From Thermoanaerobaculia bacterium (lineage in GTDB: Bacteria > Acidobacteriota > Thermoanaerobaculia > Gp7-AA8), in the NCBI GenBank assembly GCA_017883205.1, contig JADGNZ010000013.1, positions 1 to 64,000 on the forward strand: 64,000 nt of DNA, given 5' to 3'. Shown here piece after piece: positions 8,359 through 46,215 of this stretch; within the stretch, counting starts at the first letter, position 1, and each line of letters begins with the position of its first letter. A program made the translations under genes and the position numbers. The notes beneath the pieces are model-generated. The model ran no database searches and had not been told where the DNA came from. It was given only the letters and a program-made list of their open reading frames with translations.

Positions 8359-9321
8359 AGGACCACGGCACGACTCGATTTCTCGATCGTCATTCCGACG
8401 TTCAACACGGCGGCGATGACGCTGGCGTGTTGCCGCGCTGCAATCGCTGCGGCGCCGGCGGAAAGCGAAGTGATCGTCGTCGACGACGGCTCGAGTGATG
8501 GGACGTGCGAGGTCTTGCTGGCCGAAGTGCCGGAGGTTCGGATCGTTCGCCTTGATATCAACCGCCGCTTCGCCGCGGCAGCGAATGCGGGCGTTGCCGC
8601 GGCGAAGGGCGCGATCATCCTGCTGCTCAACAGCGACACGCGAATCGATCGTGAAGCGCCGGCGAAGATCCTCGAAGCATTCGCGGACGATAAGAAGCTC
8701 GGCGTGGCGGGCGCGCAACTCGTCGATGCGGATGGCGCGCCGCAGTGGAGCGGCGGTCCTCAACCGACGCTGCTCTGGATGGCGGTGATGGTGAGCGGGA
8801 TCGCGCGCGTGCTTCCGCGGCGCAAACGCAAACGCGGCGGCGACGTTGGATGGGTGAGCGGCGCCGCGATGGCGTTTCGTCGCGACGCGTGGAATGACGC
8901 CGGCCCATTCAACGAGACGTATCGCTTCTATGCGCAGGACCTCGAGCTCTGCGTTCGTGCTCGCGCAAACGGCTGGCGCGTGCGCGTGATCGAGAATGCG
9001 AGGGTCGTACACGACGGCGGCGCGACGCTGCGGCACGAGCGCCATGTTGCGGAGCTTCCGCACGACCCGTCGCTGCTCTGGCTCGATCTGCTGTCGTGGG
9101 GGCGCGCGCATTACGGTCGCGGGTGGGCGTGGGCGGCACGCCCGCTGATGTGCGCGGCGGCGTCTCTGCGAATTCTCGGCAGGACTCTTCGCGAGCTGTT
9201 CCTGCGAGGCGGTGCGCGGCGGTCGTCGCGTTCAACGACCCGCGTGTACGCCGCGGCCCTGCGTCAGCTCTTCGTAGAACGTGAGCAGTCCGCGGGCCAG
9301 GGCTTCGGTCGAGAAGCGTGA
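8317..9321 (+). CDS. Family 2 (GT-A) glycosyltransferase
   Basis: A 334-residue GT2 enzyme of the rhamnosyltransferase type. It has the nucleotide-binding opening DFSIVIPTFNT, an acidic EVIVVDDGSSDGT segment, the DxD-like LLLNSDTR, and the acceptor-side motif YAQDLELCVRARANGWRV. The first roughly 14 residues are read through a palindromic repeat, and no better in-frame start precedes the domain, so the ATG at 8317 is used with some doubt. It follows the sugar transferase by 27 bases and is probably in the same transcript. Its last 90 bases overlap the end of the convergent glycosyltransferase gene on the other strand. The linked sugar is unknown. Confidence 0.88.
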   Translation: MREKHLRTSATSADRTTARLDFSIVIPTFNTAAMTLACCRAAIAAAPAESEVIVVDDGSSDGTCEVLLAEVPEVRIVRLDINRRFAAAANAGVAAAKGAIILLLNSDTRIDREAPAKILEAFADDKKLGVAGAQLVDADGAPQWSGGPQPTLLWMAVMVSGIARVLPRRKRKRGGDVGWVSGAAMAFRRDAWNDAGPFNETYRFYAQDLELCVRARANGWRVRVIENARVVHDGGATLRHERHVAELPHDPSLLWLDLLSWGRAHYGRGWAWAARPLMCAAASLRILGRTLRELFLRGGARRSSRSTTRVYAAALRQLFVEREQSAGQGFGREA

Positions 9322-10575
9322 CGCCACGAGACGCCGCCCGGCCTCTCCGATCGTGCGCGCCTTCGCCGGATCGTCCAGCAGTTCCGAGACGGCAGCGGCG
9401 AAGGCATCGGGATCGTCGGCGAGGAGGATGTCTTCGCCGTGCCTCACGCCGATCCCTGCCGCTCCGATCGTCGTCGCCACGACCGGCTTGCCGAGCGCCA
9501 TCGCCTCGAGGATCTTGATGCGCATCCCGCCGCCCGAGAAGAGCGGGGCAACCATCACACCCATCGATCGGATGAACGCCTTCGCGTCCGGGATCTCTCC
9601 GTCGAACGCGACGCCGCTCGCCTCCAGCCGCTCGCGTAACCATCGCGGGGCGTTGCTTCCCGCGATGTGAACCTCGCCACGCAGCCGCGGCCCCAACTCC
9701 TCGGCGATCCAAACCGCGGCACCCTGATTGGGCCGGTAGTCGAGCGAGCCGAGAAAGCCGATGGGCGCCGCTGTGTTGCCGGCCGATGCCGCTTCGTTGC
9801 CGGCCGATGCGGCTTCGTGGGTTGGGGATTCCTCGCCCGCCCGCCGCCCCGCCCTCTCGGAATGACAGGCGGGCGAGATCGAGGCAAGCGCGGACGGAAC
9901 GCCGCCGTCACTCTCCTGTTGCTCGGCATCCTCATCGAAATCGACACCGCCCGGGAGTACGTGTATCGGCCGCGTACATCCGAGCGAACGAAAGTCGCGC
10001 GCGTCCTCCTCCGTAATCGGAACGAGCGCGTCGCACGTGTTGAGATGGCGAGTCTCGTAACGGCGAAGACTGCCAGCGATGAATTGCAGAGCCGCGCGAA
10101 ACGCCACCCGTTGCTCGCGCGCGGCGATCTGCTCCCATATCCGAAACTCGACGTTGAGCGATCGCAGGACGATCGCGGCACGCGACACGGCGCGAATCGC
10201 CGGAACGTACGGCAGCAGAAACGGGCTCTCGATCTGGACGACGTCCACATCGGACGCCTGGAGCAGCGCACGCAACTCTCGCCTGAACTGCGGCGAGAAG
10301 AAGCGGGCCACGAGCATCGGCATACCAATCCGCACGAAACTGCGCAGCACCGAAGCAGGTAGGTCATCGGTATCGATTTCGACTGCGTCGACCGGAATCG
10401 GAGCGAGTGCCTGCCGCGCCATCTCCAGGTCCGCATGCTGCTTCTTCGGATTCAGCGACAGGATGCGCACCTCGGCGCCGAGCCGCTGCATCGCCGCCGC
10501 AATCTGCAGCATGACCACGCGGCCGCCATCGCTGGGCGGATACGAGAGTCGCGGCGTGAGCTGGAGGATGCGCAT
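9232..10575 (-). CDS. GT4-like glycosyltransferase with a repeat-derived insertion
   Basis: A 447-residue GT-B enzyme, last of three minus-strand glycosyltransferase genes. The N-terminal strand is MRILQLTPRLSYPPSDGG. The C-terminal donor domain has FLGSLDYRPNQGA, VMVAPLFSGGGMRIKILEAM and the glutamate of the EAMALGKPVV segment. Between the two domains lies a low-complexity linker (CHSERAGRRAGEESP, then a doubled AASAGNE) encoded by a dispersed palindromic repeat and a 21-base duplication; the frame stays open through it. Three bases separate it from the upstream gene. The insertion sits at an inter-domain loop, so activity may be kept. Donor and acceptor are unknown. Confidence 0.88.
   Translation of the reverse strand: MRILQLTPRLSYPPSDGGRVVMLQIAAAMQRLGAEVRILSLNPKKQHADLEMARQALAPIPVDAVEIDTDDLPASVLRSFVRIGMPMLVARFFSPQFRRELRALLQASDVDVVQIESPFLLPYVPAIRAVSRAAIVLRSLNVEFRIWEQIAAREQRVAFRAALQFIAGSLRRYETRHLNTCDALVPITEEDARDFRSLGCTRPIHVLPGGVDFDEDAEQQESDGGVPSALASISPACHSERAGRRAGEESPTHEAASAGNEAASAGNTAAPIGFLGSLDYRPNQGAAVWIAEELGPRLRGEVHIAGSNAPRWLRERLEASGVAFDGEIPDAKAFIRSMGVMVAPLFSGGGMRIKILEAMALGKPVVATTIGAAGIGVRHGEDILLADDPDAFAAAVSELLDDPAKARTIGEAGRRLVASRFSTEALARGLLTFYEELTQGRGVHAGR
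9795..9876. repeat. CATTCCGAG/CTCGGAATG repeat plus 21-bp duplication inside a gene
   Basis: On the minus strand this reads tgtcattccgagagg followed by a GC-rich stretch and gaggaatcc, the same type of element as at 23281-23362. Next to it a 21-base unit (gaagc.gcatcggccggcaac) is duplicated. All of it is read in frame inside the glycosyltransferase at 9232-10575. Confidence 0.7.
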
Positions 10576-10578
10576 CGT

Positions 10579-17579: not shown

Positions 17580-17639
17580 TCACGCGGAGGCGCGGAGGGG
17601 CGGTGAAAGAAGCCCCGCGGCCTCCGCGGCTCCGCGTGA
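17580..17639. repeat. TCACGCGGAGGCGCGGAGG palindromic repeat
   Basis: An inverted repeat with arms at 17580-17598 (tcacgcggaggcgcggagg) and 17621-17639 (cctccgcggctccgcgtga), one mismatch. It is a separate family of dispersed palindrome and lies upstream of the membrane protein gene. Confidence 0.85.
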
Positions 17640-17652
17640 ACCCGTTCTCCCT

Positions 17653-17883
17653 TCCTGTTCACGGGTTCCGACTTCCCGTTGACGTGATCTGATCTCACGT
17701 TCATGTGATCCGGTTTCCCATTCACGCATTCCCGTTTACCGTTCACGGATTCCCGTTTACTGTTCACGGATTCCCGTTTACCGTTCACGGTTTCCGGTTT
17801 ACCGTTCATGGATTCCTATTTACCGTTCACGGTTTCCGGTTTACCGTTCATGGATTCCGGTTTACCGTTAACGGATTCTCATT
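17653..17883. repeat. 21-bp tandem repeat array, 11 units
   Basis: Eleven consecutive 21-base units with consensus close to taccgttcacggattcccgtt, more diverged at the left end. The period is a multiple of three and several frames stay open (seven-residue repeats such as VNGKRES on the minus strand), but no start or domain supports translation. Together with the palindrome at 17580-17639 it fills most of the gene-free stretch 17460-18011. Confidence 0.9.
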
Positions 17884-18011
17884 TTGTCTAGTTACCATTT
17901 TTAGTGGTGAAGTTGCCAACTTTTGTGACAATCGCTGGCCTGACTTATTCCGCCGGTGACCCCTTCTCATCTCGATGTGCTGGTCAACCGAGTTGACGCA
18001 AGAGTTGAGGG

Positions 18012-18392: not shown

Positions 18393-19701
18393 AGCGCTCG
18401 CGGTTCTGGATCTCGGCGAAGAGGGCGTCGATCGCTTCGGTCATTGGGCTCTTGAGCAGTTTCGGGTTGCTGCGCGTCAGGGCGGAGGCGAGGCTTTGCA
18501 GGGCCAGGGCGGTCTGTTCGGCGGAGTGGACGTCGGAGGTGAGGATGAAATCGGTGTCGCCGGCGATCGTGCGCATCAGCGTGCGGACGTCGTCGTCGCG
18601 CCAGCTCAGTGAGGCGATCTGCGGCGTAACGCCATCGATGACGTGGCGGGCTTCGACGGCGGTCTGGAAAACGCCATTGGAGTCGTTCATGTGACCGACG
18701 CGCGTGGCGATGATCGCCACGTCGTTGTCAAGCTGCGCGCGCGCCGAGGGGTTGGCGCGGCCGACGAGGAGGCGGAGGACGGCCCAGTGCTGCGGACTCC
18801 ACGCGGGAAGTCCGGCCCGGCCGGGCCAGCCACGCTCCTGGCGCCATCCGCTCCCTTCGAGCGAGTGATGGCAGTTGATGCAGCTCATGTCGGAAAACTC
18901 GGGCCACTTCTCGCCGCGCGCGTGACGGGCGAGATTGTCGAGCGACTGGCTGAATGCCACAGCCTGACCGACGGCGAATGCGCGCGCGCCATGCGTTTCG
19001 GCGGTGACCGTGTCCTTGCCGCGGCGCCAGTGCGGCGGCATCGTCTCGGTGTAGTTGTCGAGCTCGAAGGCGAGGATGGGATGGCCGGAGGCGATCAGCT
19101 CGTGATCGACTTCCTTCTTGTCGTTGCCGAGGTGGCAGGAGAGACAGCCGGAGGCGCGGGTGGGAACGTTGCGGAGATCGATCATGCCGCGCGCGACTGA
19201 CTGTTCGTGCGTCCAGCCGGCCATCGTGTGCTCGGCGCGCCAGCCGCTGGCGGGACCGTGGCAGGCTTCGCATTGCACGCCGTCTTCGGGATCGACTTTG
19301 CCGGAGACTATCCGCGCGGGAACGTTCGTCGAGTGGCAATCGAGGCAGACGGTTTCCTGGTAGGCCTTCCCTTTGAGCCGCATGTTGCGGGCGACGCGCG
19401 CGGAGCGCTCGCTGAAGAGGACGTTGTACGCCTGCGCGTGGCGATCGCTGCTCAGCCAGGTGTAGTACTCGTTCTGCAGGACGCGCGCGGCGTTGAGCGG
19501 CTGCGTCGAGCCGTGACAGCCGGAGTTGGCGCAGGAAGCGACGCCGTCGAAGTGGCCGGGGACGGATGGCGGCGTGGCAGGTGCGGTTGCCGCGGGAGGA
19601 GGAGGGGGTTGCGGAGTTGCTGGCTTGCTCGGTTGCTGGGCGATCCCTGCGACAGCGACGGCCGTTAGCGCGAAGAAGATCATCGTTCGTTTCATCGTCA
19701 T
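18340..19701 (-). CDS. Penta-haem c-type cytochrome, cytochrome c554-like
   Basis: A 453-residue exported cytochrome. A signal peptide (MTMKRTMIFFALTAVAVAGIAQ) is followed by a proline-rich linker. Haem sites are one unusual CX4CH (CANSGCH) and four CxxCH (CLDCH, CEACH, CLSCH, CINCH), with further histidines as likely distal ligands. The layout recalls the cytochrome c554/NapC-NirT-associated family. Its ATG at 19701 overlaps the stop of the decahaem gene (TGATG), so it is translated with that gene. A role in periplasmic or outer-surface electron transfer is inferred from the operon. The long upstream open frame beyond 19701 is a shadow. Confidence 0.9.
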   Translation of the reverse strand: MTMKRTMIFFALTAVAVAGIAQQPSKPATPQPPPPPAATAPATPPSVPGHFDGVASCANSGCHGSTQPLNAARVLQNEYYTWLSSDRHAQAYNVLFSERSARVARNMRLKGKAYQETVCLDCHSTNVPARIVSGKVDPEDGVQCEACHGPASGWRAEHTMAGWTHEQSVARGMIDLRNVPTRASGCLSCHLGNDKKEVDHELIASGHPILAFELDNYTETMPPHWRRGKDTVTAETHGARAFAVGQAVAFSQSLDNLARHARGEKWPEFSDMSCINCHHSLEGSGWRQERGWPGRAGLPAWSPQHWAVLRLLVGRANPSARAQLDNDVAIIATRVGHMNDSNGVFQTAVEARHVIDGVTPQIASLSWRDDDVRTLMRTIAGDTDFILTSDVHSAEQTALALQSLASALTRSNPKLLKSPMTEAIDALFAEIQNRERYEPARFVQKLGTLRAAL

Positions 19702-22700
19702 CACCTCGTGACCGGCTTCGTACCCGGCGTCTCGCTGACGGTGTAGAGACGGCCGTCGCGGAGGTAGAGCCGCTGCATTTCCAGGAGCGTCATCGGACGG
19801 GCGCCGATGCGGTTGAAGATCGAGACCTGATTGCCGCCTTCGTCGACAGCGCGGTCGCGGTCGAGGCCTTTCGACACCGCGAGTGCCGGCCCGTGCGTAT
19901 GGCGCACGGCCACGAGACGCGGCGCCGGCTCCGGACTGAAGCCGGCGTAACCCGGCGTCCACTCGGGCGACAGAAGCTGGTAGACCTTCAGGCCGTACTT
20001 GCCATCGGCGACGTACGCAAAGGTCGATGCATTCGTCGACGCCACTTTCACATCGTTCGCGTCGTGGGAAAGATCGTCGTGCCACGGCAGAACCGCGGGC
20101 TTTTCCGGGCGCTCGACGTCGACGATGACCATTCCTTGTGCACCATCGCCGACGTATGCGTACGTGCGCGCGACGTAGACGCTGCGAGCGTCGGGAATCG
20201 CGACGTGACCTGCCACGCGTGGGTGCGAAGGGTCGGTGATGTCGACGGTCGACAAACCGTCGCGCGTGGTCACGAAGGCGTAGCGGAACTGCACCGCGAT
20301 GCCTGTGGCATCTTTCAATTCGGGAACCGTGGCGACGATCCGCGGCGTGAGCGGCTTGTCGACATCGATGATGACGAGCCCACCCTCGGCACCGACGAAC
20401 ACCCATCGCCCGGCCACGTAGATCGACCGCGCTCCGTTCAACGCGCCGCCGGGGTTGAAGGTCACGGCGCGCGTCAGGAAGTTGTTCGACGGATTGGCGT
20501 CGGCCAGCGTCGTAACGTCGATGAGGATGAGTCCCTCTTCGCGGTCGGCGACGTAGACGTACTTGTAGAGCGGATGGATCGGCTGCTCCTGGTTCTCCGG
20601 AATGGACTGCGTCTGGCGGTTCGGATCCACCGGCATCGTCGTCGGCAACGCCACCGCCGACGCGAACTTCGTCTTCACGAAGGTGCGCTGCCCGATCGGA
20701 GAAACAGGCGCGGAGACAATCCGCTCAGAGAAGTCTTTGTTGTCGATGTTGGCGATGTCGTAGACGCTGAAGCCTTCTTCGCCGTTCGCGCTGTAGATGA
20801 ACTCCCCGCGCATCTGCAGCGAGCGCGAGTCTCCATGGTGCTCGTGCGCCTCTTGCAGCTCCATCTTGTTCTGCTGATGCTTCGCGTAGTAGTCGGGATA
20901 AACGATCTTGTGCAGCGACGAGCCGATCACCGCCTGCGGCTCATCCCACTCGGTGACGCAGACTCCCTCGAAGCCGCCCTTCCCTTCCGCGACGTAGGCG
21001 TAGCGGCCGACGAAGTTGACGAAGTTCGTTCCCTGCAGCAAAAGCTGCGCGAGCCAGGCGTTGTTGTCGTTCTCTTTCGTGACGTGGCAGCTTCCGCAGC
21101 CCTGCGTTTCGCGCGAACGGACGGTGTGCGGCACGTGGGCGTTGAAGGCCTGACTCGAATATCCAGCCGACGAGATCGGCGGCTGCTGGATGTAGATGCG
21201 ATCTCTCAGAGCATTGGTCGAGCTGATGACGAGCGCCGATGACGAGCGAACCGGAGCGAGGCGATGTCCTTTCGTCGTCCCATTCACGCCGAGCATGAAG
21301 ACGTCGGTGCGGATGACCTGCGGGTTGTACGAAGCGTAGTTCCTCGTCTCGCCGCCTTCGAAGTGATGCACTTCGGTCTTCGCGTTCTGCTCCTGCGGGA
21401 GATGGCAGCCCGAGCACGACGTCATCCACGATGTGTGGCAGGCGTAGCAGGTCATCTTCGCGTCGGCGTGCGCGAGATTGGCGCCTGCCTTGGCGCCCCA
21501 CGAGCCGTCGCGTTGGATCGTCTTCGCGTACGCCGAGCGCTCGTTGTAATGCTCATTGCCCGGCGTGATCGAGTCTTTGACCTGGATCACTTCCCACTGC
21601 ATGCCGGGATTGAGCATCGAGCGCTGGTAGAGCTTTCCGTTGACCCAGATGAAGCGGCGCTGGCCGAAGGGCGTCGTTCCGAGCAGCAGATCGGTGCCGC
21701 CCGGAGGCGCTGCCGGACCCGACGTACGCAAGTTCGTGTACGCATCGACGTTGCCGTGACAGTCCTGGCATTCGATCTCGATGTTGTTGCCGTACTCGGC
21801 GTAGATCTGACCGTTGCCGTGCTCGTCCTGCGAGAAGTGGCAGTCGGCGCAGTGCATCCCCTTCTCGAGGTGGATGTCCTGGAGATGCACGGCCTTCTTG
21901 AATTTCGCGGGATCGTCGAACGCAACGTGCTTCCCGTCGGCGTCGAGCAGATTGCCTTTGTGATCGCGTTTGTAGACGGCCATGAAGTTCCAGCCGTGGC
22001 CGTGATAGTCGGCGAACTGCGTGTTCTTCGCCTGCGAGTTAAGGTCCGTCAGATTCTCGAGGAACTTCTCATCCGACCACAATCCGCGCGGCGCGGCGCC
22101 TTCCGGATTGGCGTCGAGCGATGCGTATCGTTCAGCCTGGGTCGGGTACTTCTGCTTTTTCGGCCAGAGCAGCTCGGCGTCCGATTCGTAGTCCCACATC
22201 GTGTAGCCGAGGTAGGTGTTGACGAAGGAATTGGGCTGGTGCATGTGACACGACATGCACTGGCTCGTCGGCACGGCGCGCGTGAACTGATGGCGCAGCG
22301 GATGCCCCTGCTCATTTTTCGGAATCGACTTATCGCCGGTGATCGAGAGGCCGGTGTTGCCGTACTGTCCGTAGCCGGCGGAGTGCAGCGGATCGCGATC
22401 GTTGGCGTAGACGACGTGACATCCCGTGCACCCAGACGAACGGTAATCGCCGGGATGATCGTTCGTGCCCATGAACGAGAGATGCGGATCGTTGAGGCGC
22501 GTCTTGTTGAGATTAATCAGCGCGGGCGAGATGCGCAATCCGGTGCCGCGGCCGCGGTTGCCGAGGCGGATGTCCGGCCGGCCCGCATCGACCTCGGGAC
22601 TCGGATTGCCGATGTCGGGGAACGAGCTGCTGCCGGAAATGCCGCCGCGCTCGAACGCGCGGAAGTACTCGGCCGGCTGAAAGATTTCCCAGCGCGGCAG

Positions 22701-23390
22701 GGGCACGAGAATCGGCAGCGCGCCTTTCGCGATCTGATCGGGAGTCGGCGGCGTGGCCGGCTTGAGCGACTGCGCGTTGCCCTCGCGGCTGTAGCTCTCG
22801 CCGAGGAGGCCTTGCTTGCGGCTGACGAGACCGTTGGCGTAGCTCACCGCGGCCCAGAAAACCGCGGACGTCGTCATCGTGCTCCGCGGCACGGCATTGA
22901 CCTGACGCTGATGGCAAGCGCCGCACGTTTCCTGCGACACGCGCAAGTCGCCCGGGTTGATGAACTTCACAAACGCCACGGGCTCCCTCAGCAGTGCCGT
23001 GTACGAGCGCTTCGGATTCGCCGACGTCTTCCATATCTCGGGATGCAGCGGCTTGACGTGCGCGGCTTCCTTCGTCCGGGCATTGCCGTCGCCGCCGTGG
23101 CAATCGGTGCAGGCGAGCTTCACCGCGGCCGACGCGTGCATCGGTTCAATCCCGTTATGACAACTCAGGCAGCCTGCGCTCTTCGCGTCGGCTTCGGCCT
23201 GTGTCTGGCGCATGAGCGCTGGCAATTCCGGCGACGACTGCGCGCGGATGACCACCGTCGCTGCCGTGACGACGATCGCTGTCATTCCGAGCGTGGCGAG
23301 AAATCTCCCGCCGAGGAACGCGCTGCGCGTTCGCGAAGAGGATTCTTCAGCGTCGGAATGACCAAGGTTCTTTTCCATTTCGTTTTTCAT
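19701..23390 (-). CDS. Decahaem cytochrome c fused to LVIVD-type repeat domain
   Basis: A 1229-residue exported protein. The N-terminal two thirds contain ten CxxCH sites (CLSCH, CTDCH, CGACH, CTGCH, CMSCH, CADCH, CQDCH, CYACH, CSGCH, CGSCH). The last roughly 430 residues hold repeated segments such as YVADREEGLILIDV, VFVGAEGGLVIIDV, AFVTTRDGLSTVDI and AYVGDGAQGMVIVDV, which match LVIVD repeats and should form a beta-propeller. The propeller could bind a partner or mineral surface. Residues 10-37, including part of the signal helix, are encoded by a palindromic repeat. The gene overlaps both neighbours by one base (TGATG). It is a likely outer-surface terminal cytochrome; location and electron acceptor are not proven. 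Confidence 0.92.
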   Translation of the reverse strand: MKNEMEKNLGHSDAEESSSRTRSAFLGGRFLATLGMTAIVVTAATVVIRAQSSPELPALMRQTQAEADAKSAGCLSCHNGIEPMHASAAVKLACTDCHGGDGNARTKEAAHVKPLHPEIWKTSANPKRSYTALLREPVAFVKFINPGDLRVSQETCGACHQRQVNAVPRSTMTTSAVFWAAVSYANGLVSRKQGLLGESYSREGNAQSLKPATPPTPDQIAKGALPILVPLPRWEIFQPAEYFRAFERGGISGSSSFPDIGNPSPEVDAGRPDIRLGNRGRGTGLRISPALINLNKTRLNDPHLSFMGTNDHPGDYRSSGCTGCHVVYANDRDPLHSAGYGQYGNTGLSITGDKSIPKNEQGHPLRHQFTRAVPTSQCMSCHMHQPNSFVNTYLGYTMWDYESDAELLWPKKQKYPTQAERYASLDANPEGAAPRGLWSDEKFLENLTDLNSQAKNTQFADYHGHGWNFMAVYKRDHKGNLLDADGKHVAFDDPAKFKKAVHLQDIHLEKGMHCADCHFSQDEHGNGQIYAEYGNNIEIECQDCHGNVDAYTNLRTSGPAAPPGGTDLLLGTTPFGQRRFIWVNGKLYQRSMLNPGMQWEVIQVKDSITPGNEHYNERSAYAKTIQRDGSWGAKAGANLAHADAKMTCYACHTSWMTSCSGCHLPQEQNAKTEVHHFEGGETRNYASYNPQVIRTDVFMLGVNGTTKGHRLAPVRSSSALVISSTNALRDRIYIQQPPISSAGYSSQAFNAHVPHTVRSRETQGCGSCHVTKENDNNAWLAQLLLQGTNFVNFVGRYAYVAEGKGGFEGVCVTEWDEPQAVIGSSLHKIVYPDYYAKHQQNKMELQEAHEHHGDSRSLQMRGEFIYSANGEEGFSVYDIANIDNKDFSERIVSAPVSPIGQRTFVKTKFASAVALPTTMPVDPNRQTQSIPENQEQPIHPLYKYVYVADREEGLILIDVTTLADANPSNNFLTRAVTFNPGGALNGARSIYVAGRWVFVGAEGGLVIIDVDKPLTPRIVATVPELKDATGIAVQFRYAFVTTRDGLSTVDITDPSHPRVAGHVAIPDARSVYVARTYAYVGDGAQGMVIVDVERPEKPAVLPWHDDLSHDANDVKVASTNASTFAYVADGKYGLKVYQLLSPEWTPGYAGFSPEPAPRLVAVRHTHGPALAVSKGLDRDRAVDEGGNQVSIFNRIGARPMTLLEMQRLYLRDGRLYTVSETPGTKPVTR
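23281..23362. repeat. GTCATTCCGAG...TCGGAATGAC palindromic repeat within a signal region
   Basis: The element begins gtcattccgagcgtggcgag and ends tcggaatgac, with inner palindromes. It lies entirely inside the start of the decahaem cytochrome gene and encodes residues 10-37. A relative lies inside the glycosyltransferase at 9795-9876. Confidence 0.8.
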
Positions 23391-25471
23391 CAGAAGGTCA
23401 GAATCACATTCGTGAAGACGTGAACGAGCGGACGGTCTCTCTCATAAATGTCTTTGAATCCTCGGCCCGGCAAAAACAGCGCCGAGCCACCGACGATGAC
23501 GACGTTCTGATTCAGGAGCGGGCGGTAGCGAAGTCCGATCGAGAGGTCGGTGCCGAGCTCTTTGTGGATGTTGCCCTGAAAGAGAATCGCTTCGACCGAT
23601 TGCACCGCATCGAAGCGGATGTAGTTGCCGGTGAAGATCGCTTTCAGGCGCGGCGTGACATCGACGTCGAGGCCCGCGCTCGCGATCTGAACTCCAGGAT
23701 TGACATACTGCGGCTGTCCCTCATCCTTCGAACTGCGCAGGCTGGTCAGCAGCGAACCGCGCTCGACGAGCGCGACGCCGGTGCCCGCGAGCCGAATGCC
23801 GAGTCGATTGAAGAAGGAGAATCCGCCGCCTGCGAAGTTGGGACTGTCGAAGATCGCGTCGAAGCCGGTGGCCTTGCGGTCGCGCGGGCTGCGGTCGCCC
23901 GATGCGTAGAAGAACGCCAGCCGAGGACGGATCCAGTCGCGGTCGTAGGAGACTTCGAGCGCTGCGCTGCCAGCTCCGATCCTGACACCGTTTCCGTCTT
24001 TGAGGCGCGGATCGGGCCCGGCGATCGGATTGAGATCGTCGTGACCGAAGACGTAGTAGACGGCGTGATCGACATTGAAACGGCCGATGTGGCCAAGTCC
24101 TGATTCGCCGAGGTACGTTGCGCGAATCTCGTGCGGCGTGAAGACGCCGACCGGCGCAGGTCGCACGAGGATGCCGTTGCGGTCGTAGTGGAACGTCGCC
24201 TCATCGCGAACGTAGTGGACGCTGAACTGCTGCGTGTAGCCGTGGACGAGGAAGTCCTGCAGATAGATGTTCGCGATCGCGACCTGCTGATCGCGAAGCT
24301 GCATCGTGTTCAGGCCCGAGTTGGTGTCTTTCTCCAACCGGTCGAAGACGGCCACGTTGTACTGATAGCGATTCGAGGCGAAGTTGCCGAAGACGCGGGC
24401 GCCGAGGTTCGTATCGTTGAAGATGAAGCCGCGGAAGTCGCTGTTGAACGGCTGCGAACCGACACGGATCGAGATGAAGTCGTAGTTCGGCGAGACGTCC
24501 TTGAGCTTGCGCTCGTAGAAAAACTCCTGCAGTGAGAGCGCGCCGTCGGTGCGCGACGTGCCGCGAGTAACGTCAGGCTTGACCAGCCCGTTCTCGCGAA
24601 GGTGAACGTAGTTCAGATTGCCGATCAGCGTGGCCTTGAAGCGCTGCATGATCGGCTTGAACGCCGTGTCGCCCTGGAAGAGATCGAACGAGGCGATGAG
24701 GTTCTCGTTGAAGAGGTTCTGGTTGTCCTTTCCGAACACCGTGATCGACGTCGGCTTGACCGCGCTGACTCCGGATGGCGTCGGCAACGTTCGCGACTCC
24801 GCGAGCGTGTCGCTGATTCCGGTGAAGTCGAAGAACCAGTCTTTGCCGAAGATCGGCAGGTCGCCTTTGATGAGGTTCTGGTTGTACGGGTCGAGCGTCG
24901 CGCCGTTCTTGCCGATGGCGCGAGCCTTTGCCTTCTCGGTGAGCTCGTACGGCGGCGGCGCGATCCTCCAGCGATCCGTCATCTCCTGATACGCCTCGGG
25001 ATGCGGAATCTCCGGTGTGCCGTAGCGCAGCACCGGCTCGATGATCGGCTGCCGCTGCACGTTGCCGGGAAGCTGCACGCGCAGGAGTTGCGTCGCCGTG
25101 ACGCCACCGGATGTTGCTGTGATCGTCCACGTACCAGTCTTCACCGGCGGAGTCCAGATCAGCGTCCAATGTCCGGTCGTGTCGGCGGTGGTTTGTCCGT
25201 TGCCCGATTTCTCAATTGCGATTGCGATCACGGCGCCGGGCGCCGACGTTCCCGTCAGCATGAACGGCACGCCCTCGGCGTAGACCGGTTGGTCGTCGTT
25301 GATGGTGATGGTGTTTGCGGGTTGCGCGAATGCGGATGTGGCGAGTAGCGCCAAAGCAACGAAGAAAAACGAAGCGAAACGTAGGTCGGACTCTCTAGTC
25401 CGACCAATCGCGCCATGGAGTCGGACTGGAGAGTCCGACCTACGTTTCCTTCCGGCGTCGTTTACGGACAC
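23390..25471 (-). CDS. Outer-membrane beta-barrel protein with N-terminal Ig-like domain
   Basis: A 693-residue protein. After a signal peptide core (FFFVALALLATSAFAQ) comes an Ig-like domain of about 90 residues (APGAVIAIAIEKSGNG; TGTWTITATSGGVTA). A long barrel-type region of alternating aromatic strands follows, ending in FTNVILTF with the terminal Phe of outer-membrane proteins. The start is assigned to GTG at 25471: GGAGG lies six bases upstream and no ATG, and no other GTG, follows it in frame before the signal peptide. The GTG overlaps the end of the upstream gene by ten bases. The resulting long N-region (residues 10-31) is encoded by a palindromic repeat. Beside two multihaem cytochromes, it could be the porin of a porin-cytochrome conduit; this is inference. 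Confidence 0.82.
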   Translation of the reverse strand: MSVNDAGRKRRSDSPVRLHGAIGRTRESDLRFASFFFVALALLATSAFAQPANTITINDDQPVYAEGVPFMLTGTSAPGAVIAIAIEKSGNGQTTADTTGHWTLIWTPPVKTGTWTITATSGGVTATQLLRVQLPGNVQRQPIIEPVLRYGTPEIPHPEAYQEMTDRWRIAPPPYELTEKAKARAIGKNGATLDPYNQNLIKGDLPIFGKDWFFDFTGISDTLAESRTLPTPSGVSAVKPTSITVFGKDNQNLFNENLIASFDLFQGDTAFKPIMQRFKATLIGNLNYVHLRENGLVKPDVTRGTSRTDGALSLQEFFYERKLKDVSPNYDFISIRVGSQPFNSDFRGFIFNDTNLGARVFGNFASNRYQYNVAVFDRLEKDTNSGLNTMQLRDQQVAIANIYLQDFLVHGYTQQFSVHYVRDEATFHYDRNGILVRPAPVGVFTPHEIRATYLGESGLGHIGRFNVDHAVYYVFGHDDLNPIAGPDPRLKDGNGVRIGAGSAALEVSYDRDWIRPRLAFFYASGDRSPRDRKATGFDAIFDSPNFAGGGFSFFNRLGIRLAGTGVALVERGSLLTSLRSSKDEGQPQYVNPGVQIASAGLDVDVTPRLKAIFTGNYIRFDAVQSVEAILFQGNIHKELGTDLSIGLRYRPLLNQNVVIVGGSALFLPGRGFKDIYERDRPLVHVFTNVILTF
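25381..25443. repeat. GTAGGTCGGACT palindromic repeat within a signal region
   Basis: Arms at 25381-25404 and 25420-25443 match in 23 of 24 positions around a 15-base loop. Given the GTG start at 25471, it is translated as residues 10-31 of the barrel protein. It sits right after the stop codon of the upstream gene. Confidence 0.9.
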
Positions 25472-27285
25472 GGTTTGCCTCCGCACTCGGTGACACCTTC
25501 GGGGCTTCGCGGGAACTTGAACATGGGAAGCCGTGCGTCGTTGATCTTGAGCTGATCGGCCCACTTGTCGGTTGGCGGCAGGAATTCGCCGGCGCCGAGG
25601 TAGGTGACGTAGTCGTCTTGTTCGATGCCGTCGCCGCTGACGCCGAGTCCGCCGACGAGCTTGCCGTTCTGCACGAGCGGCGTCGCGCCGCCGAAGAACG
25701 TGATGCCGTTCTGATTGTCGTTCGGCGCCTGCGACCCCTGGCTGCACGGCTTGGCGATGTTCGGCAGGAACAACGTCGCGTACCACGGTCCCGGTTTTGG
25801 ATCGAACACGCTCGAGTCGATTCCGGGCGGATAGAACGGCTGCGCGCCGAATCCGAGCGTTCGCGTCGTGACCCAGTAGCCGGCAGGAATGCCGGGCAGA
25901 TCGTTGCGCACGTTTGGATCACTGCTGTTGAAGTAGACGACGTTGCGCGCCTTGGCTGGAACGACATCGACGGCGTCGAAGAGCGCGTCGGGCATCCGGT
26001 AGTGCGCGAGCAGCGTGCCGTCGAGATCGGCGACGGAGATGACCATGCGCGAGTAGCTGCTGAGCGGCAGCCGCACCTGCGCACGCGTCTTCTTCGATGC
26101 CGCGACGGAACGTTGGACGATGGCATCGACCTGCGCGGCGGTCAGTCCGCCCGGGAATGAGCTGGCGTTCGGACCGACGAGATATCCGTGCGGCGGGCAG
26201 CCGCCGTTGAACGGGCCGTAAACGAACGTTCCGCCTGTGAATCCAACAGCGGAACCGGGCGATGTGCCCGTCAACTGCTGCAGCCCGACCGGCAGTCCAT
26301 CGGTGTTGAATCGCAGCTTCTGATCCGGCCCGATGAACGGCAGGCGGATCCCGTCGATGAAGACGTTCTGCGGATCCGGCAGCGGATAGTTCGGCAGCGG
26401 GATGATCGGTGCGACGCCGGCGTTGAGTGGCCCGAACGCGCCGGTGACCGCGGCGAACTCGTCAAGCTGCGAATCGCCGGGAATGCCGGCAACGCCGATG
26501 GCGCCGAGAAGCTTGCCGGTTCTGGCGATGCCCTGCTTGACCGCGCTGACGTCGAGGATGCGGTAGAGAGGAATGCCGCCCGCGTCGATAGGACGGTTAT
26601 CCACTTCCTGCGGGTACGGCGGATCGTCAGGCAGAATTTTCCCGGTGACGAGGCCGGGCCCGCAGCCGGATCGGTCGGTTGCCGGGCACGGTTTCGGAGC
26701 GCCGGTGAACGAGGCGAACTGCCCGATCGATTTCGCCCGCGGAATGCACTGGTTGGTGTTCCAGAGAGCGTTGAGCCCGCATCCGCGGTTGGATTGCTCG
26801 ATGCCGTACAGCGCGCCGACCGGTGCGTTGACGACGCCCGGTGGAAAGTGAACCTGCGCAATCGTGCGCACGGTGCGCGACGAGAGCGGCGCCTGACTGT
26901 TGCTGAAGAACGCGGCGGTGCGGGCGACGCCGAGGGCGACGTCATCGTTGGCCGGGTTGGCGTTGGCCTGGCGGAACAGCGCCACCGGACGGCCGGTGCG
27001 GTCGACGATCGCAATCGTCGCGGTGTCGCCGGCGAGCGCCGTCGCCGCCGCCTGCACGATTGCAGTCGCTTCGGCCTTCGACATCGCGCTGAACGATTCG
27101 GGCGTGCCGCTGCCGACCGTACCGTCGGTGCAGACATCGGGAACAGCGGCGGTCAGAGGGATGGCGCACGAGGGAGGATCGGGCACCGTCGCCAGCACAT
27201 TCGCGCGCCTTCCCGGAGTGCGGCCCTGCGCAAGGCACACGGTGGCGGCCGAAAAAATGAGGATTGATGTGACGCTCGGACGCAT
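25462..27285 (-). CDS. Secreted two-domain GlcG/HbpS-like protein
   Basis: A 607-residue exported protein with two copies of the GlcG/HbpS (DUF336) fold. The first copy includes MSKAEATAIVQAAATAL and TIAIVDRTGRPVALFRQ; the second includes LTAAQVDAIVQRSVAAS and VISVADLDGTLLAHYRMPDA, with NGKLVGGLGVSGDGIEQDD near the end. HbpS-type proteins bind haem, and some sense redox stress. Eight or more cysteines suggest disulfides in the periplasm. The start at 27285 is chosen for the strong GGGAGGGAG upstream and an immediate signal peptide (MRPSVTSILIFSAATVCLAQ). Position in a multihaem-cytochrome operon suggests a haem-handling or redox role; this is not demonstrated. Confidence 0.83.
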   Translation of the reverse strand: MRPSVTSILIFSAATVCLAQGRTPGRRANVLATVPDPPSCAIPLTAAVPDVCTDGTVGSGTPESFSAMSKAEATAIVQAAATALAGDTATIAIVDRTGRPVALFRQANANPANDDVALGVARTAAFFSNSQAPLSSRTVRTIAQVHFPPGVVNAPVGALYGIEQSNRGCGLNALWNTNQCIPRAKSIGQFASFTGAPKPCPATDRSGCGPGLVTGKILPDDPPYPQEVDNRPIDAGGIPLYRILDVSAVKQGIARTGKLLGAIGVAGIPGDSQLDEFAAVTGAFGPLNAGVAPIIPLPNYPLPDPQNVFIDGIRLPFIGPDQKLRFNTDGLPVGLQQLTGTSPGSAVGFTGGTFVYGPFNGGCPPHGYLVGPNASSFPGGLTAAQVDAIVQRSVAASKKTRAQVRLPLSSYSRMVISVADLDGTLLAHYRMPDALFDAVDVVPAKARNVVYFNSSDPNVRNDLPGIPAGYWVTTRTLGFGAQPFYPPGIDSSVFDPKPGPWYATLFLPNIAKPCSQGSQAPNDNQNGITFFGGATPLVQNGKLVGGLGVSGDGIEQDDYVTYLGAGEFLPPTDKWADQLKINDARLPMFKFPRSPEGVTECGGKPCP

Positions 27286-27308
27286 CCGCGGTCTCCCTCC
27301 CCTTTCCG

Positions 27309-29549
27309 TCAAATCTGATACACGAACGTTGCAGCGTTGTCGGCAAGCACGAGGATATCGCCTCGCTTGAGCTGGTGCTCCGTGATCCGTTCACCGCCGG
27401 CCTTCCCGAGGAAGGTACCGTTGGTCGAATTCTGATCGATGGCCATTACCTTACCATCACGCGGGATGATTCGAATATGACGTTTTGATATCCGCTTGTC
27501 GGGAATGGCCACTTGTGAGAGCGCTGGGTCACGGCCTATATAAAGACCGCTTTCCTCAATAATGAAACGCTGACCCTCGAGCACGCCGCTCGTGCATTGA
27601 ATCAACCCATACCACTGCACCATGACCGTCGCTCCGCCCTCGGCCTGCTGCGTTGGCCTGGGCGCCATGCTCGTCGCATCGTTGTCCGGTTTCGGCGCAG
27701 GTGCTGGCGGCGCTGGAGCCGCAGCCGCCTCGGCGGGCTGCAACGGCGGAATCTTCGCAGAAGGACCTTCACGTGGCGCGGCGCCGCGCACTCCGGCTGC
27801 ACGGTCGAGCTCCCCGGCTCTGATTCGTTGAACGAGCGCCAGTCCTGCCGGCACGAGAACGACCAGCAACAGCAGAACAATCGCCCAAAGAAGTACGGTG
27901 TTCAGCATCCCCGCTCCGCCTCCCAAGACATTCACGCGTAACGCCCGCTGTTTGAACGCAGGCGCCATCTTCGTCAACAACAGTCTCGAACGCTCATGAT
28001 ACTCATGACACGTCGCGCAGCTACTGGATGATTTCGCTGACGGTCCGCCGTGGCATCCCGTGCAGTCCTTACGCGACGGCATGAGTACGTCTGCAGTTTT
28101 CGTGCTCTGGCGCGCTTTCTCGTGACATGACTCACACGCGAGATTGCGATGCTCTGTGTGCGAGAACTTCGCGTGCAACAGCCAGCGGGCCGGAATCTCG
28201 GGCGGCTTTGCCGCGATGCGCGTTCCGGCACGCTCGATGACGTGGCACTTGCTGCACTTCGTCTTGATGACCTGCTCGGCGTTGAGGACGGCGCGCTCGT
28301 CGGGAGCGACCGGCGGCCGTGAGGTCAGGATGCGGCGGATCTCATCCGGGCTCTTGCCGACGATGTCGCGATTGCCCGCGTAGGTGGCCAGGACGAAGCC
28401 ATAGACCAGCCCCGGATCGCCGCCGTGCGGCACCTCGACGTCGGGAAAGCGCGGATCGAAGGTCAGCTTGTGGCAGCGCTGGCAGGCGTCGCGGAACTTG
28501 AGAGCGACAGGATCAGCCTTCCCTTTCGTCTCGACCAGCTTGTGGCACTGAACGCACTGCAGTTCTTCGCGCCGCCCTTCACCGTTGAAGATCCCGCCGG
28601 CCTTGAGGTGCAGCGCATGATTGAAACGCAGCGTGTCGGGATCGCTGCGCGGTGAAAAGTCGGGATGCTGTCCGCCGAACGACGTGATCTCGAGCAAATC
28701 CTTCGGTCTCGTCGCGAACAGCGCCGGATCCTTCACGTGCGCGAGCAGATTGCGATGGCACGTCGAGCAGGTTGCGTCCGCCGAGGCCGCGAGCTTGGCC
28801 ACGTCGCGATGCTCCGAATGGCAGTCGGCACACGCCGGCACGCCGGTCTGCTGCTCGGCGTGCGGCAGCTTTCCGTGACATTCGGTGCAACTGGCATCGG
28901 AAACGCCACGCCACGGATCGTGACACGCGCGGCAGTTCTTCGCGATCGGCTCGCCACTGGCGTCTTTTGCGCGCGCATGCGCGGACGACACGCCGCCCGG
29001 CATGAACGCTGTCTGCTTCTCCGGTTTCGTGACTTCCGCAACGACGAGGAAGGCGATGATGAGAAGGATCGCAACCAACGACCGTTTCGTCAGCCATGCG
29101 CGTTTGAGACGGAAGGCATCGACATAATCGACCTTCGGCGCTTTGAGCACGCCGCCTCGCGCGCTGCCAGCACCCGGCGTTGCCACGGACTCTTCCTCGT
29201 CGAAGGCCGCTCCGGCGGCTGCCGCGGTCGAGCTGATCCGGAGAAACAACGGCTTGCCGGGCTCGAGCACCTGCACTTCGATGCGCAGGTCGCCGATCTC
29301 GATCACGTCGGAGCGCGACAACCGTGCCGTCTCAACGGGACGCCTGTTGACGTAGGTGCCGGTGATGCTCCCCTTGTCCGTGATCGTAAAACCGGTGGCA
29401 TCGCCCTCGATAACGGCGTGCTCCAGCGCGACGGCGGGATTCTCCGAGCGCAGCTCCGCATTCGTCCCGCGTCCGATGCGGAGCAACTTGCCCCGCACCT
29501 GCGTCAGGGCCAGCCCGCGGCCCGAAGCGCGCTGGATGACGAAACTCAT
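27309..29549 (-). CDS. FHA - decahaem cytochrome c - FHA membrane protein
   Basis: A 746-residue protein. Residues 1-95 form an FHA domain (IGRG at 25-28; GSITGTYVNRR at 60-70). A transmembrane helix lies at 157-173. Residues 206-515 hold ten CxxCH sites (CRACH, CTECH, CADCH, CSTCH, CVQCH, CQRCH, CSKCH, CESCH, CTGCH, CATCH). A second helix spans 548-574. A proline-alanine linker follows, then a second FHA domain at about 655-746 (YIGRDPAL, ISKRHIRI, NSTNGTFLG). Haems must attach in the periplasm, so both FHA domains should lie in the cytosol and could read a phosphothreonine signal. The start at 29549 opens the first FHA strand directly. A Ser/Thr kinase and another FHA protein are nearby upstream. 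The fusion looks rare. Confidence 0.92.
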   Translation of the reverse strand: MSFVIQRASGRGLALTQVRGKLLRIGRGTNAELRSENPAVALEHAVIEGDATGFTITDKGSITGTYVNRRPVETARLSRSDVIEIGDLRIEVQVLEPGKPLFLRISSTAAAAGAAFDEEESVATPGAGSARGGVLKAPKVDYVDAFRLKRAWLTKRSLVAILLIIAFLVVAEVTKPEKQTAFMPGGVSSAHARAKDASGEPIAKNCRACHDPWRGVSDASCTECHGKLPHAEQQTGVPACADCHSEHRDVAKLAASADATCSTCHRNLLAHVKDPALFATRPKDLLEITSFGGQHPDFSPRSDPDTLRFNHALHLKAGGIFNGEGRREELQCVQCHKLVETKGKADPVALKFRDACQRCHKLTFDPRFPDVEVPHGGDPGLVYGFVLATYAGNRDIVGKSPDEIRRILTSRPPVAPDERAVLNAEQVIKTKCSKCHVIERAGTRIAAKPPEIPARWLLHAKFSHTEHRNLACESCHEKARQSTKTADVLMPSRKDCTGCHGGPSAKSSSSCATCHEYHERSRLLLTKMAPAFKQRALRVNVLGGGAGMLNTVLLWAIVLLLLVVLVPAGLALVQRIRAGELDRAAGVRGAAPREGPSAKIPPLQPAEAAAAPAPPAPAPKPDNDATSMAPRPTQQAEGGATVMVQWYGLIQCTSGVLEGQRFIIEESGLYIGRDPALSQVAIPDKRISKRHIRIIPRDGKVMAIDQNSTNGTFLGKAGGERITEHQLKRGDILVLADNAATFVYQI

Positions 29550-29655: not shown

Positions 29656-30501
29656 TCACCACGAAATCCTCCCGTAATAGAACACCGCGACGACATGCAC
29701 GATCGCGAACAGCAGCAGCAGGATCGTGAACGGGATGTGGATGTAGAGCCAGAACTCGAGGATGTTCTTGTAGCGCTGTTGATAGATGAGGCGGATCAGC
29801 AGCTCTTTGCGCTGGCGCGAGGCGACGAGAAGTTGACGAAGCTCCTCCTGCTCGTCTTTCTGGACGAGGCCGAGCAGGTTGGCCCAGTCCGCCGTCTGCG
29901 CTTTCCCGCGGCGCATGCGCGCGATCAGCAATCGCCATCCTGCCAGCCATCCCGGCGCAGCCTCGCGAATGAGCTGGTCGTAAATGCGCTGAAATGGCGC
30001 CGATTTCCCCGAGGCGATGCGCGCCATCTGTTTGCCCTGTTGATTGAGCTGATCGGAAATCTCCCCAACCGTCAGGTTCGATTCCACCTCGGTCAACAAA
30101 CGCGGCACGGTGACATAAAGAATCGCGCCCAGGATCCCGCTCAAGACGACAATGGCGACCAGAATCAGCGTCGCCACGGCCACTTTGTCGTGAAAGCGTC
30201 CGCCGGTGTGGAAGACCAGGATGATCAGCACGAGGATGCCGAGGTAGATATGAGACTGCATCCATTGCTCGACCGTGCCGAACGTCGAGCGATACCAGCG
30301 CTTGCGAATGCCGAAGAACGCCAGGAGGAAGCAGAGAAAAAAGCCCGCAATCCCGTAGATCAACCCCATGCGCGAGCCGCCGTGCGGGTACTCGCGCTGC
30401 GCGTACCAGATGAACGACGCCGTCGCGGCGATCAACAGTACGAAGAAGATGCGGCGCCAGAGAACGCCGGAGCGGGCTATGGGCATGCGCGCCCGCCCCA
30501 A
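29656..30501 (-). CDS. Membrane di-haem b-type protein
   Basis: A 281-residue integral membrane protein with about five helices. Two helices carry histidine pairs spaced by 14 residues: H84-H98 and H255-H269. That spacing is typical of bis-histidine b haems stacked across a membrane, so it could pass electrons between a cytosolic donor and periplasmic cytochromes. Between helices four and five is a charged cytosolic segment of about 120 residues. It lies between the gene for the Fe-S flavoprotein upstream and the FHA-cytochrome gene downstream, which supports that role. The start may be the ATG at 30501 or the one at 30486. Haem binding is inferred from spacing only. Confidence 0.78.
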   Translation of the reverse strand: MGRARMPIARSGVLWRRIFFVLLIAATASFIWYAQREYPHGGSRMGLIYGIAGFFLCFLLAFFGIRKRWYRSTFGTVEQWMQSHIYLGILVLIILVFHTGGRFHDKVAVATLILVAIVVLSGILGAILYVTVPRLLTEVESNLTVGEISDQLNQQGKQMARIASGKSAPFQRIYDQLIREAAPGWLAGWRLLIARMRRGKAQTADWANLLGLVQKDEQEELRQLLVASRQRKELLIRLIYQQRYKNILEFWLYIHIPFTILLLLFAIVHVVAVFYYGRISW

Positions 30502-30507
30502 CGGATC

Positions 30508-30593
30508 AGGGAGTCGGGAGTCGGGAGTCGGGGGTCGGAGAATGGCGTCCGATGCCAGTCTTCGACCCCCGACCCCCGACTCCCGACTCCCGA
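30508..30593. repeat. GGGAGTCGGGAGTCGGG inverted repeat
   Basis: G-rich arm at 30508-30538 (repeated gggagtc units) and complementary C-rich arm at 30564-30593. Several runs of three or more G could also form a quadruplex. Related strings occur at 45326-45382, 46356-46388, 53371-53401 and 53502-53520. It separates the first two genes of the electron-transfer operon. Confidence 0.75.
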
Positions 30594-30612
30594 ATCATTC
30601 AACATTGCACAC

Positions 30613-45382: not shown

Positions 45383-45504
45383 ATACACACGTTCCCGACG
45401 CGATGACTCTACCGCGTGTGACAACAACTATCACCGGAAGGCGGACACGCGGGCGAAAGCGAGGGCTAACCGCGACCGAACCGCCGACAATCGGGACAGA
45501 CCGC

Positions 45505-46215
45505 TGTGTCGTCGCGTTTACCCGGCGTGTTGCCGTGTTCATGCGCCGCGCTGTCGCGTTCACACGCCGTGTTGCCGTGTTCACCCGGGGATGTTGTCGC
45601 GTTCATCAGCCATGCTGTCGCGTTTGTCCGGCGTGGTGTCGCGTTTATCCGGCGTGATGACGCGTTCGTCCGGCCTGCTGTCGCGTTCATTGGCCCCCGC
45701 TGTCGCGTTCATCCGCTCCGCTGTCGCGTTCATCCGCTCCGCTGTCGCGTTCATCCGCTCCGCTGTCGCGTTCATCCGCTCCGCTGTCGCGTTCATCCGC
45801 CCCGCTGTCGCGTTCATCCGCCCCGCCGTCGCGTTCATCCGCCCCGCTGTCGCGTTCATCCGCCCCGCTGTCGCGTTCATCCGCCCCGCTGTCGCGTTCG
45901 TCCGGCCTGCTGTCGCGTTCGTCCGGCCTGCTGCCGTGTTCATCAGCCCCGCTCTCACGCTCATCCGGCCTGCTGTCGCGTTCGTCCGGCCTGCTGTCCC
46001 GTTAATCAGCCCCGCTGTCGCGTTCATGCGGCCTACTGTCGCGTTTATCCGCCGTGCTGTCGCGTTTTCTACCTCGAAAATCGCGCTCATCCGCCGTGTT
46101 GTCGCGTTTTTCCGCCGAAAATCGTGTTCATCCGGCGTGTTGTCGCGTTTTTCGGCGGGGAAATCACGTTTATCCGCCGAAAATCGTGTTTGTCCGCAGG
46201 ACTGTCGCGATCAGC
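45505..46215. repeat. 21-bp tandem repeat array, over 30 units
   Basis: More than thirty units with a 21-base period (a few are 22), consensus close to tgtcgcgttcatccgccccgc. Units at 45700-45900 are almost identical; the edges are diverged. Several frames are open through it, but no start, domain or biased composition favours translation. It fills most of the gene-free stretch 45322-46387; the remaining 46216-46355 holds nothing recognised. Confidence 0.92.

Follow-up and report, generated by a model that had tools for sequence, protein, structure and literature searches.

Dispersed palindromic repeats lie in frame in the predicted leaders of two overlapping genes in a Thermoanaerobaculia genome

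The window analysed here, a 64,000-nucleotide stretch of a Thermoanaerobaculia bacterium (Acidobacteriota; assembly GCA_017883205.1, contig JADGNZ010000013.1, positions 1 to 64,000), contains an operon that runs from a gene for an HbpS-like protein through genes for a putative barrel protein and a decahaem cytochrome to a further multihaem cytochrome gene. The barrel and cytochrome genes each contain, close to the start codon, a palindromic repeat, referred to below as family A and family B, respectively. A first-pass annotation of the same DNA had assigned these repeats to barrel residues 10-31 and cytochrome residues 10-37, and both assignments proved exact. The features of the locus are as follows.

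25462-27312, minus strand: upstream operon gene with an HbpS-like domain (PF03928); the barrel start signals lie within its last codons.
25478-25482, minus strand: GGAGG ribosome-binding site, six bases 5' of the GTG at 25471, in the Gly-Gly codons of the upstream gene.
23390-25471, minus strand: barrel protein gene; GTG start at 25471, overlapping the upstream stop TAA (25464-25462).
25381-25443, no strand assigned (the palindrome reaches 25376-25448): family A inverted pair, coding barrel residues 10-31, RRSDSPVRLHGAIGRTRESDLR.
19701-23390, minus strand: decahaem c-type cytochrome gene; the ATG at 23390 shares its A with the barrel stop TGA.
23281-23362, no strand assigned: family B 82-bp palindrome with 10-bp ends GTCATTCCGA and TCGGAATGAC, coding cytochrome residues 10-37, GHSDAEESSSRTRSAFLGGRFLATLGMT.

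The cytochrome carries ten CXXCH motifs. The upstream HbpS-like protein ends in ECGGKPC before its stop, and this end encloses both the barrel GTG and the GGAGG, which is present where the first-pass annotation had reported it. The name "barrel" is based on predicted strands, a C-terminal phenylalanine, and operon context; Pfam and PDB searches with this protein gave no match, and its AlphaFold model (mean pLDDT 45), confident only over the strand-rich segment of about residues 51-130, was below the quality required for a fold search.

We compared the genome of this stretch (G000) with two congeners (G001 and G002) and with further relatives, all of them metagenome-assembled Acidobacteriota. 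Both open reading frames (ORFs) are intact, and the ratio of non-synonymous to synonymous substitution rates (dN/dS) against both congeners is 0.10 for the barrel protein and 0.07-0.08 for the cytochrome; purifying selection acts on the bodies of both proteins. If the genes were instead in early decay, with the repeats marking lost function, an insertion in the leader might in principle have been a plausible first lesion. Against this stand the intact frames, the dN/dS values, on which a pseudogene reading was rejected, and the family A insertion in the barrel gene, which is common to G000 and G002: its right-hand boundary is identical in the two genomes, and although its length differs, the frame stays open in each. 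We consider decay hardly credible.

The barrel repeat consists of two inverted repetitive extragenic palindromic (REP) units, each with GTAG followed by the stem GTCGGACT/AGTCCGAC, and forms an inverted pair (I12) of 29 nt with 97% complementarity. Its 12-mer GTAGGTCGGACT occurs in 95 exact copies genome-wide, compared to one for the reversed control, with 55 copies in G002, none in G001, and 0-1 in the other family members searched. As in GTAG-type REPs, the units occur mostly in +/- pairs about 45-75 bp apart. They also bracket, at positions 14-286 and 863-927 of locus L083, a gene at 363-851 that encodes a RAYT transposase of 162 amino acids (P0003 on contig C55; NF047646, 103.9 bits with a cut-off of 80). 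No family A REPs flank the RAYT homologue of G002 (51% identical), and in G016, which carries the heptad palindromes described below, a close RAYT was not found; the RAYT-REP link is thus established for family A of G000 alone, not for the heptads. Family A carries GTAG and not the CGTC tag ascribed to Rickettsia palindromic elements (RPEs) (PMC3733652); it works like an RPE but is not classed as one. In copies inside genes, the palindrome often runs a few bases into the variable flanks (gggaac..gttccc in L064, agaaac..gtttct in L066, aagaac..gttctt in L078), perhaps because the target is palindromic or because of how the element inserts.

Set against the features of a miniature inverted-repeat transposable element, family B shows inverted ends of 10 bp and scattered copies that differ in their interiors; a target-site duplication and a related transposase were not identified. 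The sequence GTCATTCCGAGCG has 47 genome copies at up to one mismatch, compared to five for the control, and roughly a dozen or more of these look like genuine family B copies by inspection. Both repeats are therefore dispersed beyond chance and, as the first-pass annotation had stated, belong to two different families. Another copy of family B lies in frame in a glycosyltransferase gene of the window (9232-10578, minus strand; repeat core 9854-9866), where it codes ..CHSERAGRRAGEESPTHEAASAGNE.. in the linker between the PF13439 (residues 18-215) and PF13692 (273-403) domains.

Signal peptides were judged by eye, and the export function of all leaders discussed here is predicted. On this basis, the barrel repeat appears to supply the n-region only, the helix FASFFFVALALLATSAFA that forms the h-region being native, whereas the cytochrome repeat seems to add an n-region, its terminal arginine, and FLATLGM, about half of the h-region, followed by the native remainder AIVVTAATVVIRA. 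The proposal that such repeats build or extend signal peptides is thus supported for the extension of the n-region in both proteins and for part of the h-region, including the claimed contribution to the signal helix, in the cytochrome; it does not extend to the barrel helix.

The position of the start codons is central to this assignment. The barrel junction could be read in ten family members, and in nine of them the gene starts with a GTG overlapping the upstream stop, whether a repeat is present or not; in the tenth (G014), the codon that overlaps the stop is an ATG. A perfect GGAGG six bases 5' of the GTG is also found in G010, G012, and G016. Short leaders without a repeat occur in five of the ten, e.g., VLVRRTALITLLLLAAVPLFA, VSVSPRWWLLALALAPPLMA, and VRLNIGRFTGALLLSLCLQLRA, four of them from the GTG (G003, G008, G012, and G016). 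In both congeners, the cytochrome ATG has the same position, overlapping the barrel stop, and is followed by the leader MKRITIALAAVLIVALAVIRIRAQ or nearly so; the family B repeat and the residues it codes are absent from both. Orthologues lacking the repeats, the comparison proposed with the original annotation, are therefore available for both genes, and the proposal withstands the orthologue-based refutation named with it.

These starts bear on the possibility that the repeats are extragenic, i.e., that translation starts downstream of them and that they are RNA hairpins or passengers in an untranslated leader. The hairpins of both repeats are stable in RNA, many N-terminal REPs of other species were judged extragenic (Di Nocera et al., 2013, PMC3733652), and an extragenic position is true of other copies with a conserved start after the repeat (L226, L230, and L243 in G009; L310 in G016; L066 and L084 in G000); starts of genes preceded by family C and D copies also lie mostly after the repeat. 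At the two loci in question, however, the starts conserved in relatives precede the repeats. The barrel gene has no in-frame ATG, GTG, or TTG from its repeat up to the h-region, and the only downstream standard start of the cytochrome gives MTAIVVTAATVVIRAQ, which has no charged n-region; standard starts 3' of either repeat would thus leave no usable signal peptide. Since the starts are conserved and those downstream are unusable, translation would have to pass both repeats unless a non-standard start is used. Leaders of varied length that are open and in frame in G000, G002, G001, G009, and G010 also argue against the extragenic position, which we consider quite unlikely for these genes.

In those five of the ten readable genomes, the barrel leader carries a dispersed repeat from one of four unrelated families, in frame in every case. 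G002 has about three units of family A; G001 has two copies of GCCGGCGGCTCGCCGGCTG (35 in its genome at up to one mismatch); G009 has GAACGCA heptads with their inverted partner (58 exact 19-mers in the genome, none in the control); and G010 has CCCTCTCCCCGC..GCGGGGAGAGGG palindromes (58 in the genome). The cleanest before-and-after pair appears to be the RND adaptor, which begins with MKRSLLLLSLIAAVAC in G016 and with MRR, about 33 repeat residues, and SALAILVLGSLAC in G009, the ribosome-binding sites being nearly identical; the repeat would here have been placed between MRR and the h-region. For the cytochrome, the barrel protein, and the RND adaptor, the repeat-coded part of the n- or h-region is missing in homologues (by eye), as expected of an insertion of the type described for RU-2 in Yersinia YPO1552. 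The cytochrome leader of G009 (L140), with which a CCCTCTCCCC-like repeat overlaps, has an ambiguous start and was omitted from the counts.

Family A also shows a preference for sites after genes. Among clusters outside genes, 20 of 29 lie within 35 bp after a gene 3' end, compared to 13% of random intergenic points (p = 6e-12), a bias toward positions just past gene ends already published for other REPs (PMC3733652). At the barrel and cytochrome loci, the repeats lie 18 and 27 nt past the stop of the overlapping upstream gene. The first-pass annotation had noted that both repeats occupy the same relative place; what they share is this position just past an overlapping stop, and the start at residue 10 in both looks like a coincidence. 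Overlap of the start with the upstream stop was found at repeat-bearing leaders of the barrel protein, the cytochrome, and, in G009, the RND adaptor (ATGA), GGT (GTGA), and a sulfatase (TGATGA), as well as in a cytochrome c lipoprotein of G001 (ATG..TAA, read from the sequence); the sulfatase of G016 has no such overlap. As REPs settle after stops and these genes overlap, the insertion spot would at the same time be the leader of the next gene.

The leaders are only one of several places where such repeats are tolerated. Of the 45 family A clusters in this genome, 16 are in-frame parts of ORFs, among others those of DnaE, PheT, DnaX, ThrC, an Lhr-type helicase, an IMS-family polymerase, and a pyridoxal phosphate-dependent decarboxylase, i.e., in unrelated conserved proteins, as is typical of RPEs. 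In DnaE, PheT, DnaX, and ThrC, translation of the repeat can hardly be avoided, judging from its position. Stop-bearing CTAG loops are rarer in genic family A copies (5 per 34 units) than outside genes (25 per 65; p = 0.02). The DnaE insertion is also present in G002, where it is three residues shorter, and is absent from G001 and G009. The loops of ThrC and Lhr, which contain family A in this genome, are occupied in G001 and G002 by a GGGAGTC-type heptad palindrome, while ThrC of G009 has no insert; different palindromes in the same loops, depending on the species, indicate permissive sites colonised repeatedly by different repeats. In the ThrC loop (L063), just after residue 109, a short TCCCGACTCCCGA remnant belonging to the heptad family adjoins the REP, which suggests turnover or nesting of repeats at one site. 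PheT (L082; residues 76-112 and 503-525) and DnaE (L090; residues 930-949 and 1134-1164) each contain two palindrome families at separate sites. Four families in the barrel leader, the RND adaptor, six heptad leaders, and these cytosolic loops and linkers take the pattern beyond the two adjacent genes first described.

The heptad palindrome of genus g8, (GAACGCA)n..(TGCGTTC)n, is stop-free in all frames. Because its unit has seven bases, the three frames give one residue cycle, and inversion of the arms makes the encoded peptides independent of orientation: (ERRTQNA)n with a mean hydropathy of -2.6, then (CVLRSAF)n with +1.4. Across all stop-free heptamers, the hydropathies of the two arms are anticorrelated (r = -0.71), as base-pairing at codon second positions would predict. 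All six translated N-terminal heptad copies of g8 belong to exported families (barrel protein, RND adaptor, GGT, two sulfatases, and a periplasmic binding protein; p = 0.0002-0.002, assuming 25-35% exported proteins). The ratio of leader to internal sites is 6:1 for heptads, compared to 1:16 for family A in this genome (p = 0.0003, with counts curated by eye). The h-region of GGT in G016 is FFFILPSAFCILHSA, apparently a degenerate heptad arm. Not included in these counts were L309, L312, and L323, whose "inside gene" calls look like antisense ORFs, and L228, which appears to start after the repeat. The window itself contains a heptad palindrome, GGGAGTCGGGAGTC..GACTCCCGACTCCC, at 30504-30596, just 5' of a membrane gene (29656-30501), and it is probably extragenic because this gene has starts after the repeat. 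We tentatively suggest, at somewhat less than even odds, that some palindromic elements may act as portable signal peptides: arms pairing at second positions would tend to flip hydropathy, giving a charged n-region and a hydrophobic h-region, so that an element inserted in frame after a start could create or replace an export signal, and arm hydropathy would decide which families survive in leaders and which in loops.

Taken together, we propose, with a probability of about 0.8, that palindromic repeats inserted after the stops of overlapping genes, were kept in frame, and are read as a tolerated leader. The two dispersed palindromes would have inserted just 3' of stops in an operon with overlapping genes, where DNA landing just past a stop falls within the following gene, in the stretch from the start codon to the signal-peptide h-region. 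If they kept the frame and brought no stop, such insertions would survive and be translated as leader, tolerated because signal peptidase removes it and the length of the n-region is free. Hydrophilic elements such as family A would lengthen the n-region, and those with a hydrophobic second arm (family B and the GAACGCA heptads of g8) would also supply part of the h-region. The identity and in-frame position of the repeats, the conserved starts, their absence in relatives, their recurrence, purifying selection, and the post-stop preference of family A are observed directly; we infer that the leaders are translated, work as Sec signal peptides, and are retained by tolerance rather than benefit.

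Several points weigh against it. The counts are low and in part curated by eye; the genomes are drafts, in which gene boundaries near repeats come from a simple codon-usage caller; the start codon is GTG in the barrel gene and several others; and a 170-nt RNA containing the barrel hairpin folds with -88.6 kcal/mol, a very high stability that might hinder translation. The repeats could also be kept for a benefit, the early hairpin tuning translation or protecting the mRNA between genes and the coding effect being a by-product; REPs have often been proposed as RNA elements (PMC3733652), and four families recur at one junction, but half of the readable family members have no repeat there, and the same elements occupy many unrelated sites, including protein loops, which fits tolerance. 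We consider such a benefit unlikely.

Two features of the window lie apart from these repeats. Adjoining the cytochrome operon, 27309-29549 (minus strand) encodes a single predicted protein with the unusual combination of FHA domains and cytochrome c7-type haem domains. Tandem arrays occur at 45501-46150, 17624-17896, 2572-2791, and 54583-54738, with spacings of 21, 21, 22, and 12 bp, respectively.

Family A shares with the GTAG-tagged REPs described inside genes by Di Nocera et al. (2013, PMC3733652) the tag, the hairpin, inverted pairs, a RAYT flanked by the same REP, the position after gene ends, and in-frame copies in unrelated genes and genes of DNA replication; copies at the N-terminus were noted there as well, and recB of X. 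campestris and X. oryzae carries different REPs at about the same site. In contrast to that work, in which Acidobacteriota are not among the phyla with GTAG repeats, the leader insertions here go with overlapping starts that are conserved, and repeats of unrelated families occupy a single leader, and likewise the same loops, in sister species. RPEs similarly comprise several palindrome families in frame in unrelated, often essential proteins (PMC10969869, PMC2229807), and expression of RPE-1 proteins with N-terminal decoration has been reported from R. conorii (PMC3733652); RPEs are about 150 bp long (PMC10969869), whereas family A has about 60 bp. In Yersinia, an RU-2/YPAL element forms part of the predicted signal peptide of YPO1552 (Delihas, 2007, PMC2759123), a single locus encoding a putative exported protein of 144 amino acids, while the present cases involve conserved proteins and starts, several families, and several genera. 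The TAACTGA heptanucleotide direct repeats of Beggiatoaceae, which are intergenic with possible regulatory roles (PMC4679880), likewise form dispersed arrays of 7-bp units, but they contain stop codons, whereas the heptads here are inverted, stop-free, and located in coding sequence. In the coding palindromes of Nematomorpha mitochondria, both arms are translated, and hydrophobic residues are constrained when second positions pair (PMC6649704); those are long inverted repeats in conserved mitochondrial genes, neither dispersed nor signal peptides.

In-frame palindromes in genes (RPEs, GTAG REPs) and a predicted signal peptide built by a miniature inverted-repeat transposable element (Yersinia, PMC2759123) are therefore already known, while repeat-built signal peptides in Acidobacteriota were not found in the open-access literature. 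As far as searchable papers show, the repeated occupation of one leader, and of shared protein loops in sister species, by unrelated families is new, as are the tie to stop/start overlaps and a heptad leader independent of frame and orientation. These findings extend a known, rarely documented route from mobile DNA to new protein sequence, in a case that joins the settling of REPs after stops, compact operons with overlapping genes, and regions of proteins in which additional residues are tolerated. Repeat-coded N-termini should thus not be trimmed by default as artefacts during annotation. Signal peptides change rapidly, and how they arose can seldom be seen; here, leaders appear to have been caught shortly after an insertion, while the ancestral start and h-region can still be made out. 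The case makes mobile DNA as an export signal a directly testable question.

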